DNA of 55,989 nucleotides from Nitrospirota bacterium (GTDB taxonomy: Bacteria > Nitrospirota > Thermodesulfovibrionia > SZUA-242): NCBI GenBank assembly GCA_016212095.1, contig JACRHH010000023.1:1-55989 (forward strand). The letters run 5' to 3'. Under the pieces are notes generated by a model. The model did no database searches. It was not told where the DNA came from and saw only the letters and a list, made by a program, of their open reading frames with translations. Below are positions 23,495-55,554 of the stretch, in pieces (within the stretch, counting starts at the first letter, position 1; each line of letters opens with the position of its first letter). Position numbers and translations under genes: made by a program.

Positions 23495-23500
23495 TCAAAA

Positions 23501-23523
23501 ACCCCGCCGAAGCGGGGTTTTTT
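23501..23523 (-). terminator. Terminator after the HesB selenoprotein gene
   Basis: ACCCCGC (23501-23507) pairs with GCGGGGT (23512-23518) around a tetraloop; A/T runs on both sides make it work in both directions. Its main service is the minus-strand gene ending at 23560. Confidence 0.8.
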
Positions 23524-23559: not shown

Positions 23560-23886
23560 TCAGCACTTGCACGAGCCGCCGCAGCCGCTCTTGCCGCCGC
23601 CTGCAATAGGCTTCTCCGACGTAATCATAAGGCCGCTTCTGAATCCGTCGTCCATGAAATCGACCTTAAGCTTGCCCAAAGACTCGATAAGTCCCTTTTC
23701 AACCACGAACTTCTGGCTTTCAAACTCGTAAATGCTGTCATTATCTTTCGGCTCATCCAGAGCCAAGCCCAGTGCGGGCCCGGATCAACCGCCCGCCGAC
23801 AGATATACGCGAAGCGGTGAGGTGAGCTTCTGCTCTCTCATGTAGCCGCCGATCATGTCGAGCGCGGCTTTAGTAACTTCCAACAT
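23560..23886 (-). CDS. HesB/IscA-like selenoprotein with in-frame UGA
   Basis: One 108-codon gene interrupted by TGA at 23787-23785 (codon 34). Before it: MLEVTKAALDMIGGYMREQK and SPLRVYLSAGG; after it: SGPALGLALDEPKDNDSIYE, with the HesB/IscA fold continuing to a C-terminal GGGKSGCGGSCKC. In IscA relatives the residue at this place is the first metal-ligand Cys, so the UGA stands where Cys is expected. A HesB-related selenoprotein family of just this design is known. Frame, length and conservation are uninterrupted on both sides, which argues against a pseudogene. AAGGAG lies 7 nt before ATG 23886. Likely role: Fe-S cluster or redox chemistry. It needs selA/B/C/D elsewhere in the genome. Confidence 0.88.
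23755..23785 (-). promoter_or_regulatory. Putative bacterial SECIS stem-loop
   Basis: Directly after the UGA, ATCCGGGCCC (23785-23776) pairs with GGCTCTGGAT (23764-23755), nine of ten positions counting two G-U pairs. It closes an 11-nt loop with several G. Position and form fit the SelB-binding element that bacterial selenoproteins carry within the coding region. Confidence 0.55.
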
Positions 23887-23991
23887 ACCATTTCTCCTTG
23901 TTAAACTGCGTATAGCGGCTCCGGATAACCAAAACTTGCATTCTTTATCGGTAACCGCAACGGAAACCTTATAAAAGGCCCGCTGTTTCGT

Positions 23992-24021
23992 ATTATTCGT
24001 CATGCGCCGCGCGGATGTCAA
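23992..24021 (-). promoter_or_regulatory. Promoter of the HesB selenoprotein gene
   Basis: On the minus strand TTGACA (24021-24016), an 18-nt spacer and AATAAT (23997-23992). It gives a leader of about 100 nt, so the gene is separate from the response-regulator gene upstream. Confidence 0.55.
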
Positions 24022-24081: not shown

Positions 24082-24459
24082 TCAGGCGACAGAGTCTTTA
24101 TTGAGGGCGCGGCGAACGACATCACTCAACTGATGCGGCGTAAACGGCTTGTTCACATAATCGTATGCGCCGAGCTTTATTGAAAGCACTGCGGTGTCGA
24201 TCGTCTGATAGCCCGTAATGATCACAACCTGAGTTTCAGGCCAGCGAGACTTGATATTCCGCAGGAATTCGATTCCGTCCATTCCCGGCATCTTCAGATC
24301 TGTAAGCACCAAATCAAATCTGTCCGCCGCCAGCAGTTCAAGACCGGCATTGGCGTTCTCGGCTTGGGCCACCTCATATCCTTCGGGCTCCAATGCGCGA
24401 CGACAACTTATTCGCACAATCGGCTCATCGTCAACCACCAGTATTCTGGGCTTACTCAC
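24082..24459 (-). CDS. Single-domain response regulator
   Basis: A 125-aa CheY-like receiver: ILVVDDEPIVRISCRRALEP, phospho-acceptor Asp54 in LVLTDLKMPGMDG, Thr in VVIITGY, and Lys in YVNKPFTP. There is no output domain, so it works by protein contact or as a phospho-relay. GTG 24459 is chosen because the kinase gene ends 8 bp inside it and GGAGG lies upstream; an ATG at 24519 would overlap the kinase far more. It forms a coupled pair with the kinase next door, at the 3' end of the nuo operon. Confidence 0.88.
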   Translation of the reverse strand: MSKPRILVVDDEPIVRISCRRALEPEGYEVAQAENANAGLELLAADRFDLVLTDLKMPGMDGIEFLRNIKSRWPETQVVIITGYQTIDTAVLSIKLGAYDYVNKPFTPHQLSDVVRRALNKDSVA

Positions 24460-25606
24460 AGCACGACCCGCCTCCCGGCTCAAGCGGGAAATCGATGTAA
24501 AAACTCGTTCCCTCGCCAATCTTGCTTCGTATCCTTATGCAGCCGCCGTGATCCTTCACAAGCCCGTGGCTTACAGCAAGACCAAGCCCGGTTCCCTTGC
24601 CGACCGGTTTAGTGGTAAAAAACGGCTCGAATATCTTCTCGATGTTTTCCGGAGATATGCCTGAACCAGTATCGCGGAACTCAACCTCAACATGATCCTT
24701 CCCGTTAATGTCGGCAAGCCGCGTGGCTATCGTAAGGGTTCCACGCCCCTCCATCGCGTCGGCGGCGTTCACAATCATGTTTAGAAACACCTGCTGTATC
24801 TGCGGCGCATTCATATAGGTGTGAGGGAGAGTGTCATCCAGTTCAAGATCAACCTTAACATTAAAGAAATCGGCCTTGTTGCTGACTATCCGGAGAGACG
24901 CCCGCACAACATCGTTCAGGCTGGCAGGAGCCTTTTCCTCCGAGCTTGCGCGCGAAAACCCGAGAAGCCCCCGAATGATGTTGGCGCAACGGTTTGCCTG
25001 CTCGATTATCACATCAACATCCTCACGGTCGGCGCTTCCCTCCGGAAAACGGTCACGCATGAGATGGCCAAATGTCACTATCCCGGTAAGAGGACTGTTC
25101 AGTTCATGTGCAACACCAGCCGCCATGCGCCCCAGAGATGCAAGCTTCTCCGAGTGAATAAGCTGATCCTGCGCGCGTCTGATCGCCTCGGTCTTCTCCT
25201 CAACCTTTTTTTCGAGCGTTGTACCCCATTCCATAAGCTCGCTCTTTGCCGTTGACAGCTCCTTCGTCATTGCATTGAAGGAGGCAGCAAGCTCACCCAT
25301 CTCGTCCTTCGACTTGACCGGTATCACATAATCCAGATTGCCGCCCGCAACCGTGTTTATTCCCTTGAGAAGCTCGGCCAGCGGACGCTTTACAACAAGC
25401 ATCAGCGCAAGACAGAGAGAAAAAGCAAAGATAAATCCAAACGCGATGAAATACGTGATTATGTTCTGGGAAACCATGCCCGCGCCGGCGTCGAGCAACA
25501 GTTTCCAAAGAACTATTGTGCCGACAAGCAGCAAAGCGCCAACCGAAAGAATGAGTTTACCGCTGAAGGTATGGAAGAACTTGTTCTTTATCCAGGTTAA
25601 CAGCAC
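24452..25606 (-). CDS. Membrane sensor histidine kinase (HAMP)
   Basis: A 384-aa kinase if started at GTG 25606. It has two transmembrane helices (about 16-34 and 50-71) with almost no periplasmic loop, a HAMP domain ([16 protein letters not shown]), a coiled coil, HisKA with phospho-acceptor His167 in [15 protein letters not shown], and HATPase_c with [14 protein letters not shown] and [13 protein letters not shown]. It ends in an odd GGGSCCE. An in-frame ATG at 25687 lies inside nuoN and is less likely. With only 16 bp after the nuoN stop it is probably co-transcribed with nuo and may sense membrane energy state; that link is inference. Confidence 0.85.
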
Positions 25607-25622
25607 GGCGTGAGAAATTGCG

Positions 25623-27062
25623 TCATCCCCGGAAAACCGACGCAGAGCCGCGCGCAAGCGACACGAGCGCATCAGGGAACAGACCAATCAGCACCACCGC
25701 AGCAGCAGTTACTGCAAGCACAATTTTAACCCTGACAGGTTCGCAAGCGCACATTATTTCGCTGTCGGGTGCTTCCATGTACATGAGCCTGACAACACGA
25801 AGGTAGAAATATGCCGAGATTGCGCTGAAAATGGCTGCCGCAATGACTATGTAAACATGTCCGCTGTTGACTGCGGCGGTAAACAGATAAAACTTGCCTA
25901 TAAATCCGGCTGTCGGCGGTATTCCGGCCAGCGAAAACATGAACAGCAGCATAATAAACGCAATACCCGGACGCGTTTTCGACAAACCTCTAAAATCGTC
26001 CAGCCCGTCAAAGCCCGTGCCATTTCGATCAAGAAGTATGATCACGGCAAACGCGCCAAAGTTCATGAACGCATAAATCATCATGTAGTTCATCATTGCC
26101 GCCACGCCTTGCGCTGTTCCGGCGATCACGCCGATAAGCGCGTAACCGGCATGGGCTATCGATGAGTACGCAAGCATTCGCTTGATGTTTGTCTGGCCAA
26201 GCGCCATGATGTTTCCAACCGCCATCGTAAGCACCGCAAGCATGGCAAGCAACGCGCTCCAGCCGGCAAGCTCCGACGCAAACGCCGCAACAAATACCCG
26301 CGCCATGACCGCAAACCCGGCTGCCTTCGGCCCAACCGACATGAACGCGGTGACAGGAGTGGGCGCGCCCTCGTAAACATCTGGTGCCCACATATGAAAC
26401 GGAGCCGCCGCCACCTTGAACCCGAAGGCGACAACGAACATCACAATCGCGGCCAGAAGTACCGGATTGCCGGTAATTGTTCCCTCGCCGAGCATTTTCG
26501 CGATTCCGGCAAGCTGTGTCGTGCCGGTAAGCCCGTAGATCAACGATATTCCATATAGCAGAAACGCCGACGAGAACGCGCCCAGCATGAAGTATTTCAC
26601 GGACGCTTCGTTCGACTTTATGTCACGCCTCAGAAATCCGGCCAGAACATATGTCGAAAGCGCCATCAATTCAAGCCCAAGATAGAGGCTCATGAGGTCG
26701 CCGGACGACGCCATCATCATCATGCCGAGCGTTGCGAAAAGCATAAGGATATAGTATTCGCCGTGCTCTTCCTTACGCGCGCTGAAATATGCGCCGGAAA
26801 CAAGAATGGTCAGAGCGGCGTTAATGAGAAACACCATCTTGAAAAACGTCGCATAACGGTCGGAAACAACCATGCCGCTGAAAGCGGTTCCAACGGGAAC
26901 CGACATCGTGAATGCCATCGTCGCGCCGACAATAGCCAGCGAAAGCCACGCGGTAACCTTCTTGTCATGAATTACGAGATCGGCAACAAGAAGAAGCATG
27001 GCGCAAACGGCCATAATTGTTTCAGGAAGGATATACGCCATGTCGGACATCTGGAAGTTCAT
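25623..27062 (-). CDS. nuoN: NADH-quinone oxidoreductase subunit N
   Basis: A 479-aa antiporter-like membrane subunit of complex I with 13-14 predicted transmembrane helices. Conserved are LELMALSTYVLAGFLRRD, SVKYFMLGAFSSAFLLYGIS, FKVAAAPFHMWAPDVYEGAP and KRMLAYSSIAHAGYALIG. The Lys/Glu in these helices belong to the proton channel. It is the last nuo gene, 2 bp after nuoM, and the two-component pair follows. Confidence 0.95.
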   Translation of the reverse strand: MNFQMSDMAYILPETIMAVCAMLLLVADLVIHDKKVTAWLSLAIVGATMAFTMSVPVGTAFSGMVVSDRYATFFKMVFLINAALTILVSGAYFSARKEEHGEYYILMLFATLGMMMMASSGDLMSLYLGLELMALSTYVLAGFLRRDIKSNEASVKYFMLGAFSSAFLLYGISLIYGLTGTTQLAGIAKMLGEGTITGNPVLLAAIVMFVVAFGFKVAAAPFHMWAPDVYEGAPTPVTAFMSVGPKAAGFAVMARVFVAAFASELAGWSALLAMLAVLTMAVGNIMALGQTNIKRMLAYSSIAHAGYALIGVIAGTAQGVAAMMNYMMIYAFMNFGAFAVIILLDRNGTGFDGLDDFRGLSKTRPGIAFIMLLFMFSLAGIPPTAGFIGKFYLFTAAVNSGHVYIVIAAAIFSAISAYFYLRVVRLMYMEAPDSEIMCACEPVRVKIVLAVTAAAVVLIGLFPDALVSLARGSASVFRG

Positions 27063-27064
27063 CC

Positions 27065-28624
27065 TTACCTGCCCCCCCCAATCGGCTCAATTATTTGCGA
27101 AATTTGAGCAAGTTGGGCCGCGCCGCCTGACGCGTTTACATGCGCCACAAGATGCTCGACCGTCGCATGCATGAAGCCGAGATATGCGTCGGGGTTCAGC
27201 CCGATCCAGAACACCAGAAACAGCATCGGGAGCACAGCAGCCATTTCGCGCCCGTTAATATCGGCAAGCGCCGCCACATTGTCGGAAACATCCTGAAAGA
27301 ATACCCGTCTGTACAGCCAGAGCATGTAACCCGCGCCCAGGATCACGCCGGTCGAAGCGAAAAGCCCGATCATGCGGTTTTTCGTAAATCCTCCAAGCAG
27401 AATCATGAACTCGCCAACAAAGCCGTTCGTGCCGGGGAATCCTATCGATGACAGCGTCAGTATCAGAAACATTGTCGCATAAACAGGCAGCGGCTTGGCC
27501 ATTCCACCGTAGAATGCGATCTCACGGCTATGGGTTCGCTCGTACACCGCGCCCACCATAAGGAACAACCCGCCCGTAACCACGCCGTGGTTTATCATCT
27601 GGATTATTCCGCCCTCAAGTCCCTGCGTGTTCATGGCGAAAATGCCCAAGGTGACAAACCCCATGTGGCTGACCGAACTGTAGGCGATAAGCCTTTTCAG
27701 ATCTGTCTGGGCAAAACATATCACCGCGCCATAGATTATTCCAACAACCGATAGAACCATCATCGGCATTGCCATGGCCTTCGTGGCTTCCGGAAAAAAC
27801 GGAATCGAAAAGCGAAGAAATCCGTAAGCGCCCATCTTGATAAGCACAGCCGCCAATATCACTGAACCGGCGGTCGGAGCCTCGGTATGCGCGTCCGGCA
27901 GCCATGTGTGAACCGGAAACATCGGGACTTTTACCGCAAAAGCGGCAAAGAACGCCAGCCAAAGAGTTGTCTGCAACCCGATCGGCAGGCTTCCGGCCTT
28001 TGCCGCAAGCTCCGGGATGAAGAACGTGCCGCCCAGTTTCAGGTAAAGCGTGATGATTCCGATCAGCATCAGCAGACTTCCGACAAGCGTGAACAGGAAG
28101 AACTTTATCGTCGCGTAAAGCCGTCCGGGGCCGCCCCATATGCCGATCAACAGAAACATCGGAATCAGCATGGCTTCCCAGAAAATGTAGAAGAGAAACA
28201 TGTCGAGCGAGCAGAAGACGCCGATCATCGCGCCCTCCACAATGAGAATAGCGACATGAAACTCCTTCACCTTCTCCTTTACCGCAGTCCACGAAATCAG
28301 CACACAGAGTATGCCGACCAGCGTGGACAGCAGAACAAACAGCACGCTTATGCCGTCAACGCCCATCGCATAGTTAATGTTCCAGTCCGGAATCCACGGG
28401 CTCATCTCCGCAAACTGCATCTTCCATGTGGAGCGGTCGAACGCCGTAAACAGCGGAAGCGATAACAGGAACGTAACAACGGTAACTGCAAGCGCGCCAA
28501 ACCGGGCCAGATTGTCGTTTCCGCGCGGCATGAGCATCAGCAATATTCCGCCGGCAATCGGCAGGAACGTGACTACGCTCAGTATCGGATACGACAGGGA
28601 GTTCATGACGAGAGATTCCATCAT
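27065..28624 (-). CDS. nuoM: NADH-quinone oxidoreductase subunit M
   Basis: A 519-aa Mrp-antiporter-like subunit of the complex I membrane arm. Typical sequences: WEAMLIPMFLLIGIWGGPGR, AFAVKVPMFPVHTWLPDAHT, GAYGFLRFSIPFFPEA and LKRLIAYSSVSHMGFVTLGI. Channel residues (Glu in WEAM, Lys in VKVP) are present. The ATG overlaps the nuoL stop by 4 bp (ATGA), giving translational coupling; an internal ATG at 28606 is an alternative. Confidence 0.95.
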   Translation of the reverse strand: MMESLVMNSLSYPILSVVTFLPIAGGILLMLMPRGNDNLARFGALAVTVVTFLLSLPLFTAFDRSTWKMQFAEMSPWIPDWNINYAMGVDGISVLFVLLSTLVGILCVLISWTAVKEKVKEFHVAILIVEGAMIGVFCSLDMFLFYIFWEAMLIPMFLLIGIWGGPGRLYATIKFFLFTLVGSLLMLIGIITLYLKLGGTFFIPELAAKAGSLPIGLQTTLWLAFFAAFAVKVPMFPVHTWLPDAHTEAPTAGSVILAAVLIKMGAYGFLRFSIPFFPEATKAMAMPMMVLSVVGIIYGAVICFAQTDLKRLIAYSSVSHMGFVTLGIFAMNTQGLEGGIIQMINHGVVTGGLFLMVGAVYERTHSREIAFYGGMAKPLPVYATMFLILTLSSIGFPGTNGFVGEFMILLGGFTKNRMIGLFASTGVILGAGYMLWLYRRVFFQDVSDNVAALADINGREMAAVLPMLFLVFWIGLNPDAYLGFMHATVEHLVAHVNASGGAAQLAQISQIIEPIGGGR

Positions 28625-30561
28625 CTGCCTCCCATCAGCGCAAGCGCCAGAACCACCAGCGCGAACGCTCCGGTTGCCATGATCGTGGCGTAATGATGAA
28701 CCACTCCGGTTTGAAGCGATCTCAATTTTTCTCCAAACCAGCCTATTGATTTCGGCACGCCGTTTACTATGCCCTCAATGATTGCGCCGTCAGTTACCGG
28801 TAGCAGCACGTTTTTTGCCACCCATATCACCGGACGAACGATGACGGCGTCGTAAAATTCATCCACGTAGTATTTGTTCTGTAGCCAGCGATACGGAACT
28901 CCGTTCAACGCCGCAGCCATCCTGTCCGGAATGTCGCTCTTCTTGCCGTACAACATCCAGGCAGCGCCAATTCCGGCAAGCCCCACAGCAATCGAAAGCA
29001 GCATAACCATAAGCTCCTCGCCGTGGCTTCCGTGCGCCTCCGGATGTCCGACCACCGGCATGAGGAAATGCGCGAAATGGTTTTCAAACCCAAGCGCGGG
29101 CGGCAGCCCAACCCATCCGGCGGCAACCGATCCGACGCATAGAATTATCAGCGGAATAGTCATAACCGACGGCGATTCGTGCAGGTGGTGCTCCTTTTCA
29201 TGTCCGCCCCTGAACTGGCCATGGAACGTGAGGAATATCAGCCGGAACGAGTAGAACGCCGTCAACAGCGCAACCAGCGTGCCGACCATCCAGAGCACCT
29301 TTCCGAGAGAGCCGTGAGAGGCGTATGTCAGCCACAGTATTTCATCCTTGCTGAAAAATCCGGCAAGAAGCGGAAAGCCCGATATGCTGAGCGACGCGAT
29401 CCAGAAGGTTATGGCGGTTGTCTTCATGTGGCGATATAGCCCGCCCATGTTTCGGATATCCTGATCGTGAACCGCATGGATCACGCTTCCAGCGCCAAGG
29501 AATAGAAGCGCCTTGAAAAAAGCGTGAGTGTACAGGTGAAAAATCCCAGCAGAATACGCTCCAACTCCGCAGGCCAGCACCATGTATCCAAGCTGGCTGA
29601 TGGTGGAATAGGCGATAACCCGCTTGATGTCTGTCTGCACCAGAGCTATCGTCGCCGCGAAAAGCGCGGTGAACGCTCCGGTTATCGCAACAACCATCAT
29701 CGCCGAATGCGACATATTGAAAATGGGATTGCATCGGGCAAGCAGAAACACTCCAGCCGTAACCATTGTGGCGGCATGGATGAGCGCGCTAACCGGAGTT
29801 GGGCCTTCCATGGCGTCGGGCAGCCACACATGAAGCGGAAACTGGGCCGATTTGCCGACCGCGCCGCAGAAAAGCAGAAGCGCGATAAGCGTGATCCGGT
29901 CAATGTCAAATCCCGCGATATGAAGCACCGGCGACTGCCAGTTCTGGAGCGCGGCGAAAACCGTCCGGTAGTCGAGGCTGCCAAAATTGATGAACACCAG
30001 GAACAGCCCAAGCGCGAATCCGAAATCGCCGAACCGGTTGACTATAAACGCCTTCTTGCCCGCGATGGCCGCCGACTCTTTGTTGTAGTAGAAACCGATC
30101 AGCAGATAAGAGCATACGCCAACAGCCTCCCAGCCGAAGTAAAGCTGGAGGAAGTTGTTCGACATTACCAGCATCAGCATCGAAAAGGTAAACAGGCTCA
30201 GGTATGAATAGAACCGCCAGTATCCGCTTTCGCCGTGCATGTAGCCGATGGAGTAGATGTGAACGAGAGTGGATACCGTTGTGACGACAACCAACATCAC
30301 AACCGTAAGCTGGTCGATGCAGAATCCTACCGCCAATTGCAACGAGCCGGAAGTGAGGAACCTGTAAACGTCGCCGTAATAGGTCTTGCCGCCAAGCACG
30401 TCCATCACGGTAAGCACCGACAGCAGCCACGACCCGGCGACTGCCAGCGTGGCTATCCAGTGCGCCTTTTCCTTGATAACCCTCGCTCCGAAGAGACCGT
30501 TGATCAGGAACGCCAGCAGCGGAAGGCCAGGAATCAGCATATGTGTTGCCGTAATGCCCAC
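28621..30561 (-). CDS. nuoL: NADH-quinone oxidoreductase subunit L
   Basis: A 646-aa antiporter-like subunit with the long lateral helix at the C-terminus. It shows FGWEAVGVCSYLLIGFYYNK, AVGKSAQFPLHVWLPDAMEG, PTPVSALIHAATMVTAGVFL and RVIAYSTISQLGYMVLACGV. GTG 30561 is chosen as start because GGGGGG lies 8 nt upstream within the end of nuoK; ATG 30540 is a possible shorter form. It drives one of the proton pathways of complex I. Confidence 0.94.
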   Translation of the reverse strand: MGITATHMLIPGLPLLAFLINGLFGARVIKEKAHWIATLAVAGSWLLSVLTVMDVLGGKTYYGDVYRFLTSGSLQLAVGFCIDQLTVVMLVVVTTVSTLVHIYSIGYMHGESGYWRFYSYLSLFTFSMLMLVMSNNFLQLYFGWEAVGVCSYLLIGFYYNKESAAIAGKKAFIVNRFGDFGFALGLFLVFINFGSLDYRTVFAALQNWQSPVLHIAGFDIDRITLIALLLFCGAVGKSAQFPLHVWLPDAMEGPTPVSALIHAATMVTAGVFLLARCNPIFNMSHSAMMVVAITGAFTALFAATIALVQTDIKRVIAYSTISQLGYMVLACGVGAYSAGIFHLYTHAFFKALLFLGAGSVIHAVHDQDIRNMGGLYRHMKTTAITFWIASLSISGFPLLAGFFSKDEILWLTYASHGSLGKVLWMVGTLVALLTAFYSFRLIFLTFHGQFRGGHEKEHHLHESPSVMTIPLIILCVGSVAAGWVGLPPALGFENHFAHFLMPVVGHPEAHGSHGEELMVMLLSIAVGLAGIGAAWMLYGKKSDIPDRMAAALNGVPYRWLQNKYYVDEFYDAVIVRPVIWVAKNVLLPVTDGAIIEGIVNGVPKSIGWFGEKLRSLQTGVVHHYATIMATGAFALVVLALALMGGR

Positions 30562-30565
30562 GTTG

Positions 30566-30868
30566 TCAGCCCCCCATTTCCTTGATCTCGTCGATATGCG
30601 CGGTCGGCTTGTTCCTGAACAGTGCAATGATTATCGCCAGTCCAATAGCCGCCTCCGCCGCCGCCACCGCTTTGATGAAGAACACCATTATCTGGCCGCG
30701 TATGTCTTCGAGGTAATGGCTCATCGCAACCAGATTGATATTCACGGCGTTCAGCATAAGCTCAACCGACATGAACATTATGATCACATTGCGCCGCGTG
30801 ACAAATCCAAATACGCCTATCGCGAAAACCGCCGCGGAAAGCGCCATATACCACGTAACCGGAACCAT
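30566..30868 (-). CDS. nuoK: NADH-quinone oxidoreductase subunit K
   Basis: A 100-aa subunit with three transmembrane helices. Two buried Glu needed for proton transfer are visible in [18 protein letters not shown] and in [20 protein letters not shown]. Full length. The start lies 2 bp after nuoJ, and nuoL begins 4 bp after its stop. Confidence 0.96.
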
Positions 30869-54562: not shown

Positions 54563-55554
54563 CGGTCGAGGCCGCCGGAGAGTCCGCGCTTGTCGGACTC
54601 ATCCGGCGCGTTCAGGGCGAATCCGGCCCGACTGTAATCAAGGGCATTGGCGATGACGCCGCAGTTTACGCGCCGCCGGAAGGCGTCTCGCTCGCAAGCG
54701 CCGACATGCTGATCGAAGGCGTTCATTTCGATCCCGCAACCACAACCCCGTTTCAACTCGGCTATAAATGCGTCACGGTTAACCTCAGCGACATCCGCGC
54801 CATGGCCGGAGTGCCGCGTTACATTCTGGTGTCGTCCGCCATTCCCGGCGGCATGGACGTTGCCGATCTGGAGGAAATATTCACCGGCATGAAGGCGGCA
54901 TGTTCGAAATACGGCGTTGACATCATAGGCGGCGACACATGCCGCTCGCCGCATGGCCTGACGATTTCAGTCACGGTTATCGGCGACGCACACGCGCCTG
55001 TGTATAGAAGCGGGGCGCGGCCCGGCGACGCCCTTTTTCTAAGCGGCCCGACAGGGGATTCTGCGCTCGGCCTCGAAATCCTCAAACGCGTCGGAAAGCG
55101 CATGAACCTGGATTGTCCTGAATCGCTCGGCCTGCCGCCTGAAATATCCGGTTCGGAGCTTAGCATCGAAGCGGCACGAGCACTTCGACGTCATCTCATG
55201 CCGGAGCCGGTGATGCGCGATTTTCACGGCGCAACCGCGATGATCGACATCAGCGACGGCCTTCTGCTCGACCTTTCGCGCCTCTGCGCCGAAAGCGGCG
55301 TCGGAGCGGTTGTGAATATGGAATCGATTCGGCTTTCCCCGCAGCTCAATAAACTCGCGCCGCTTCTCGGCCTCGACGCGCTGACACTCGCGCTTTCGGG
55401 CGGCGAAGACTATGAGTTGCTGTTTGCCGCACCGGCTGACGCCGAATTCAACGGAGCGGTCAGAATCGGCAGGATTGTTGAAAAACCGGGAATATTCTCC
55501 GACGATGAATGCAGGCAGATGGTGCAACCCGCCGGATACGACCATTTCGCATGA
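54559..55554 (+). CDS. thiL: Thiamine-monophosphate kinase
   Basis: A 331-aa ATP-dependent kinase that makes thiamine diphosphate. Family features: GIGDDAAVY (metal/ATP), [82 protein letters not shown] and [14 protein letters not shown]. Full length. The ATG overlaps the lon stop by 4 bp. The product is the cofactor of Dxs, coded elsewhere in this window, though there is no sign of linked control. Confidence 0.94.

Follow-up and report, generated by a model that had tools for sequence, protein, structure and literature searches.

The window, here the whole 55,989-nucleotide stretch of Nitrospirota DNA that was analysed, carries a hesB-like gene on its minus strand (23560..23886) which, read as a selenoprotein gene, encodes 108 residues followed by a UGA stop (MLEVTK...GGUSGPALGLALDEP...CGGSCKC). 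Its read-through translation, from 23886 to 23560 on that strand, is MLEVTKAALDMIGGYMREQKLTSPLRVYLSAGG-U-SGPALGLALDEPKDNDSIYEFESQKFVVEKGLIESLGKLKVDFMDDGFRSGLMITSEKPIAGGGKSGCGGSCKC-stop. The U marks the sole internal TGA of the open reading frame, codon 34 (23785..23787, minus strand), located in a UxGP motif (GGU-SGP); elsewhere the gene is intact, with no other stop. In the alignment, this codon coincides with a Cys of the homologues, which serves as a metal ligand in those Cys proteins. An initial annotation of this DNA had described the same open reading frame, its unshifted course and the TGA at 23787-23785, and had claimed Cys in relatives at this point; the sequence and our alignment agree with it on each of these.

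The gene is framed by expression signals. A ribosome-binding site (AAGGAG, 23894..23899, minus strand) was read directly 7 nt before the ATG, and an intrinsic terminator (CCCCGC-TTCG-GCGGGG-TTTTT, 23497..23517, minus strand), also read directly, is unlisted by the terminator scanner. The sigma-70-like promoter at 23992..24021 (minus strand; TTGACA-18-AATAAT) is a consensus match only, one promoter-like match being found where 0.5 was expected. Ribosome site, promoter-like match and the hairpin with its run of five T are all present around the gene, as had been noted before.

Directly upstream, on the minus strand as well, lie a histidine kinase and a response regulator gene (24082..25687), and further upstream nuoN, nuoM and nuoL, which encode complex I subunits (25623..30627, minus strand); these identities are what we take them to be from the sequences and from knowledge of the families. 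The kinase and regulator pair precedes hesB in the same order in one sister genus (G001) and is absent in another (G002). Each of the family's three genomes has nuo genes upstream of hesB, nuoL-M-N in the window genome and in G002, and nuoM-N in the stretch read of G001. No nuo gene was seen within about 1.5 kb of hesB in the Desulfobacteria loci, and the linkage to complex I is therefore shown only inside the window's family.

The read-through protein is predicted to form one IscA-like domain

The NCBIfam profile NF038090 (IscA_HesB_Se) matched the read-through protein with 118 bits (cut-off 85) in one continuous stretch covering residues 1-100. The related profile TIGR01911 (HesB_rel_seleno) gave 35.2 bits, under its cut-off of 66.35, which assigns the protein to the NF038090 branch. 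A Pfam search of the same protein returned no match. An AlphaFold model of the full-length protein, computed from an alignment of 25 relatives, had a mean pLDDT of 83 and resembled E. coli IscA (1r94, TM 0.70-0.77; 1s98 was also similar), with a C-terminal tail of low confidence. Profile match and model both support the earlier view that a single HesB fold extends across the TGA. The IscA fold with its three metal-ligand positions is present according to the model and to U34, C102, C106 and C108 in the alignment, the last three forming a C-terminal cluster (C102-GGS-C106-K-C108, 23563..23583, minus strand). By analogy with IscA, these three Cys residues and Sec34 are presumed to be ligands of a metal or a cluster.

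The in-frame TGA is conserved among relatives

An ordinary Cys-type hesB gene that had suffered a nonsense mutation, or a sequencing error, could look much the same: one base change converts TGC or TGT to TGA, and Cys homologues do exist. Comparison with relatives argues against this. TGA occupies the same codon in the two other genera of the family (G001 and G002; 59-62% identical) and in the Candidatus Desulfaltia orthologue (44% identity), and the orthologues that share it are 43-62% identical overall. In a class-wide sample around Desulfaltia, an NF038090-type member over the cut-off was found in 175 of 192 genomes, and most of the Desulfobacteria matches listed contained exactly one TGA. 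Codon 34 was TGA in 28 of the 30 Desulfobacteria loci fetched and TGC in two; the window gene shares its TGA with all 31 further distinct TGA-type relatives in the comparison. When the phylum of the window was sampled, scores over the cut-off came only from the family's three genomes; other genomes in that sample carry ordinary IscA relatives. An alignment with HesB-like selenoproteins and Cys homologues, which the initial annotation had suggested, places the TGA opposite Cys in the latter and shows it shared with the orthologues. Because relatives carry TGA at the same codon, a sequencing error is very unlikely. Given this conservation, in the first four genomes examined and in nearly all fetched loci, and a remainder of the gene that is free of further stops, we consider the pseudogene or error explanation already refuted by sequence comparison, with next to no probability left to it.

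Further relatives were also noted. Sister genus G001 encodes, besides its HesB-like selenoprotein, a paralogue of the Cys type (C204, L075:1934-2287, minus strand; NF038090, 89.7 bits), which is absent from the window genome. Several distant IscA/HesB relatives in the class have one TGA inside the match (G013:C28:9823-10436, G037:C31, G047:C2 and G018:C24).

A conserved hairpin downstream of the UGA

Downstream of the UGA, folding and synonymous-site conservation identified the hairpin UUGGCUC-UGGAU-GAGCCGA (23748..23766, minus strand; loop 23759-23755). Its loop starts 25 nt past the UGA and has a G at position 2, followed by another G, and the hairpin folds with -9.8 kcal/mol (z -3.65). Published limits for bacterial SECIS elements are a loop of 3-9 nt, a stem of 4-16 bp, a G in the first two loop positions, a spacing of 16-37 nt and an energy of at most -7.5 kcal/mol (PMC13188914); the hairpin at 23766-23748 lies within them in loop size, stem length, loop G, spacing and energy (PMC13188914).

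The 12-nt tract GCUCUGGAUGAG was kept in 32 of 32 distinct TGA genes and was nearly invariant at synonymous sites. Codons 42-45 read GCTCTGGATGAG in 30 of these genes and GCTCTGGACGAG in the remaining two, and synonymous codon identity reached 97% there, versus 27% at codons 36-40. The 32 genes are kin, so that the counts are not independent events, yet neighbouring codons in the same genes have diverged. The stretch that follows the UGA codes for the conserved residues ALDE as well; amino-acid constraint on these cannot account for the frozen third positions. Cys homologues do not keep the tract at codons 42-45, where their codons vary and mostly encode other residues. Base-pair covariation in the stem is weak, with one compensatory change (G-C to U-A, in the relative L111), since the core stem hardly varies; the outermost two stem pairs are often open in relatives, and U29 and U33 in the loop leave unformed the closing pair that the SECIS pattern often includes. 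The test that carries information here is that of the synonymous sites. From these sequence comparisons, we conclude that the tract GCUCUGGAUGAG forms the apical hairpin in a SECIS of the bacterial type. The initial annotation had placed a stem-loop at the UGA itself. A hairpin does exist there, and in the window sequence it folds as well, but relatives do not conserve it, and it was rejected as the SECIS; the conserved element is the next one downstream.

The frozen synonymous sites also speak against a pseudogene, and they bear on whether the UGA might be a true stop, so that a 33-residue peptide would be made together with a separate C-terminal product from a restart. Some termination does occur at Sec-UGA codons, and such partial termination is usual. 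Nevertheless, a frozen SECIS would be purposeless without read-through, the two halves are parts of one domain, and no restart site was noticed in an unsystematic look. We therefore give termination with restart hardly any credence and favour read-through as Sec.

The genome encodes a complete selenocysteine machinery

The window genome, estimated by the tool to be 100% complete, contains selA (620.9 bits), selB (362.8 bits) and selD (362 bits) in profile searches, as well as a tRNA-Sec (73.8 bits) whose anticodon is UCA. Their absence had been named in the initial annotation as grounds for abandoning a selenoprotein; all four were found. With SelA, SelB, SelD and a UCA-anticodon tRNA-Sec present, UGA should be readable as Sec in this genome, and this machinery counts against a pseudogene. 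The selD gene (C31:24107-25033, minus strand) has an in-frame TGA of its own in TCGUAAK, a position which we take to be the known catalytic Cys/Sec site of SelD. By its sequence, SelD is itself a selenoprotein, and at least two genes thus need UGA read-through. Both sister genomes (G001 and G002) also have selA. A selD-profile match below the cut-off (72.6 bits) was seen within the window at 54628-55359 (plus strand), inside a 516-residue open frame that is perhaps another AIR-synthase-fold protein.

The UGA could instead be read as Cys or another residue, one candidate reader being a tRNA-Sec-like tRNA-Cys whose anticodon is UCA, as known in some Desulfobacterales (PMC7609411). A tRNA-Sec-like tRNA-Cys is indeed present in the window genome; it carries GCA rather than UCA. 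Among the tRNA genes found there, the canonical tRNA-Sec is the sole one with UCA, no suppressor tRNA was seen and tRNA-Trp has the anticodon CCA only. SelA and SelD are present as well, and insertion of a residue other than Sec is accordingly rated very improbable, though slightly less so than a stop or a pseudogene. The tRNA-Sec-like GCA tRNA (C5:13412-13509, plus strand) sits between a rhodanese-like gene and serC, scores over the Rfam tRNA-Sec cut-off, is uncalled by ARAGORN and looks like the selC* tRNA-Cys of Nitrospirae and others (PMC7609411). An ordinary tRNA-Cys (GCA) is encoded too, at C37:89796.

All testable defining features of the NF038090 branch were found for the window gene, namely the profile match, the UGA at the Cys of the UxGP motif, the Sec machinery and the SECIS. 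Judged from sequence, it is very probably a genuine bacterial selenoprotein gene of the HesB-like (IscA_HesB_Se) family.

Proposed mechanism and role

In the mechanism that we propose, the ribosome would reach the UGA at codon 34 while SelB, bound to Sec-tRNA, docks 25 nt further on at the SECIS hairpin, and Sec would be inserted rather than translation terminated, as the anatomy of the gene and the complete machinery suggest. Of the three Cys ligands found in IscA, Sec34 would take over the position of the first; acting jointly with the C-terminal Cys cluster, it may coordinate iron or an Fe-S cluster, or carry out redox chemistry on it. By family and predicted fold, the protein would be an A-type Fe-S carrier, which may pass clusters from IscU/NifU scaffolds to client enzymes; three NifU_N/IscU scaffolds are encoded in the window genome.

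A search for A-type carriers (TIGR00049) detected no second one in the window genome and no further one in G002 or Desulfaltia; G001 has one further carrier, its Cys-type paralogue. Since no other A-type carrier was detected in the window genome, the selenoprotein probably performs the general IscA/ErpA job, an assignment less certain than the selenoprotein call. One could go further and regard it as the lineage's sole A-type Fe-S carrier, with its gene placed immediately downstream from the complex I operon; complex I, and perhaps every Fe-S enzyme, would then need selenium in order to mature. We regard this extension as rather unlikely.

Comparison with known systems

The gene is a clean case of an Fe-S assembly protein with a residue specified by UGA, and its SECIS signal is unusually clear, with synonymous sites frozen in 32 genes and free in Cys homologues. 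A genome with a selenoprotein as its only detected A-type carrier, near complex I genes, offers a good setting for studying what selenium contributes to cluster transfer. Apart from the sole-carrier and complex I points, which are mildly interesting, the finding is ordinary: the family of HesB-like selenoproteins with the UxGP motif is long known, and the window gene adds one member.

Compared with E. coli IscA, SufA and ErpA, the protein is alike in its predicted fold (TM 0.70-0.77 to 1r94) and in Sec34 and C-terminal Cys residues that match the three-Cys ligand set of IscA. It differs in that Sec would take the place of the first Cys and in that it scores below the cut-offs of all three equivalog profiles. 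In Methanococcus maripaludis, a HesB-like selenoprotein (MMJJ_08070) was identified by mutagenesis and 75Se labelling; disruption of its gene proved possible there, and its role is described as unclear (PMC11097638). This protein belongs to the same named family, the likeness resting on the family name, and is made there with an archaeal SECIS and Sec machinery. Eleven HesB-like members and Sec/Cys conversions were reported in a 2006 survey (PMC1794560), and a 2026 review lists the family with its UxGP motif (PMC13188914). Its carriers are anaerobes with Sec machinery (PMC1794560, PMC13188914), and the window gene is alike in this respect. Its protein ends in CGGSCKC, unlike the forms common in Desulfobacteria, and otherwise resembles the HesB-like selenoproteins in its full-length NF038090 match, its UxGP motif and a predicted Sec at the conserved HesB Cys.
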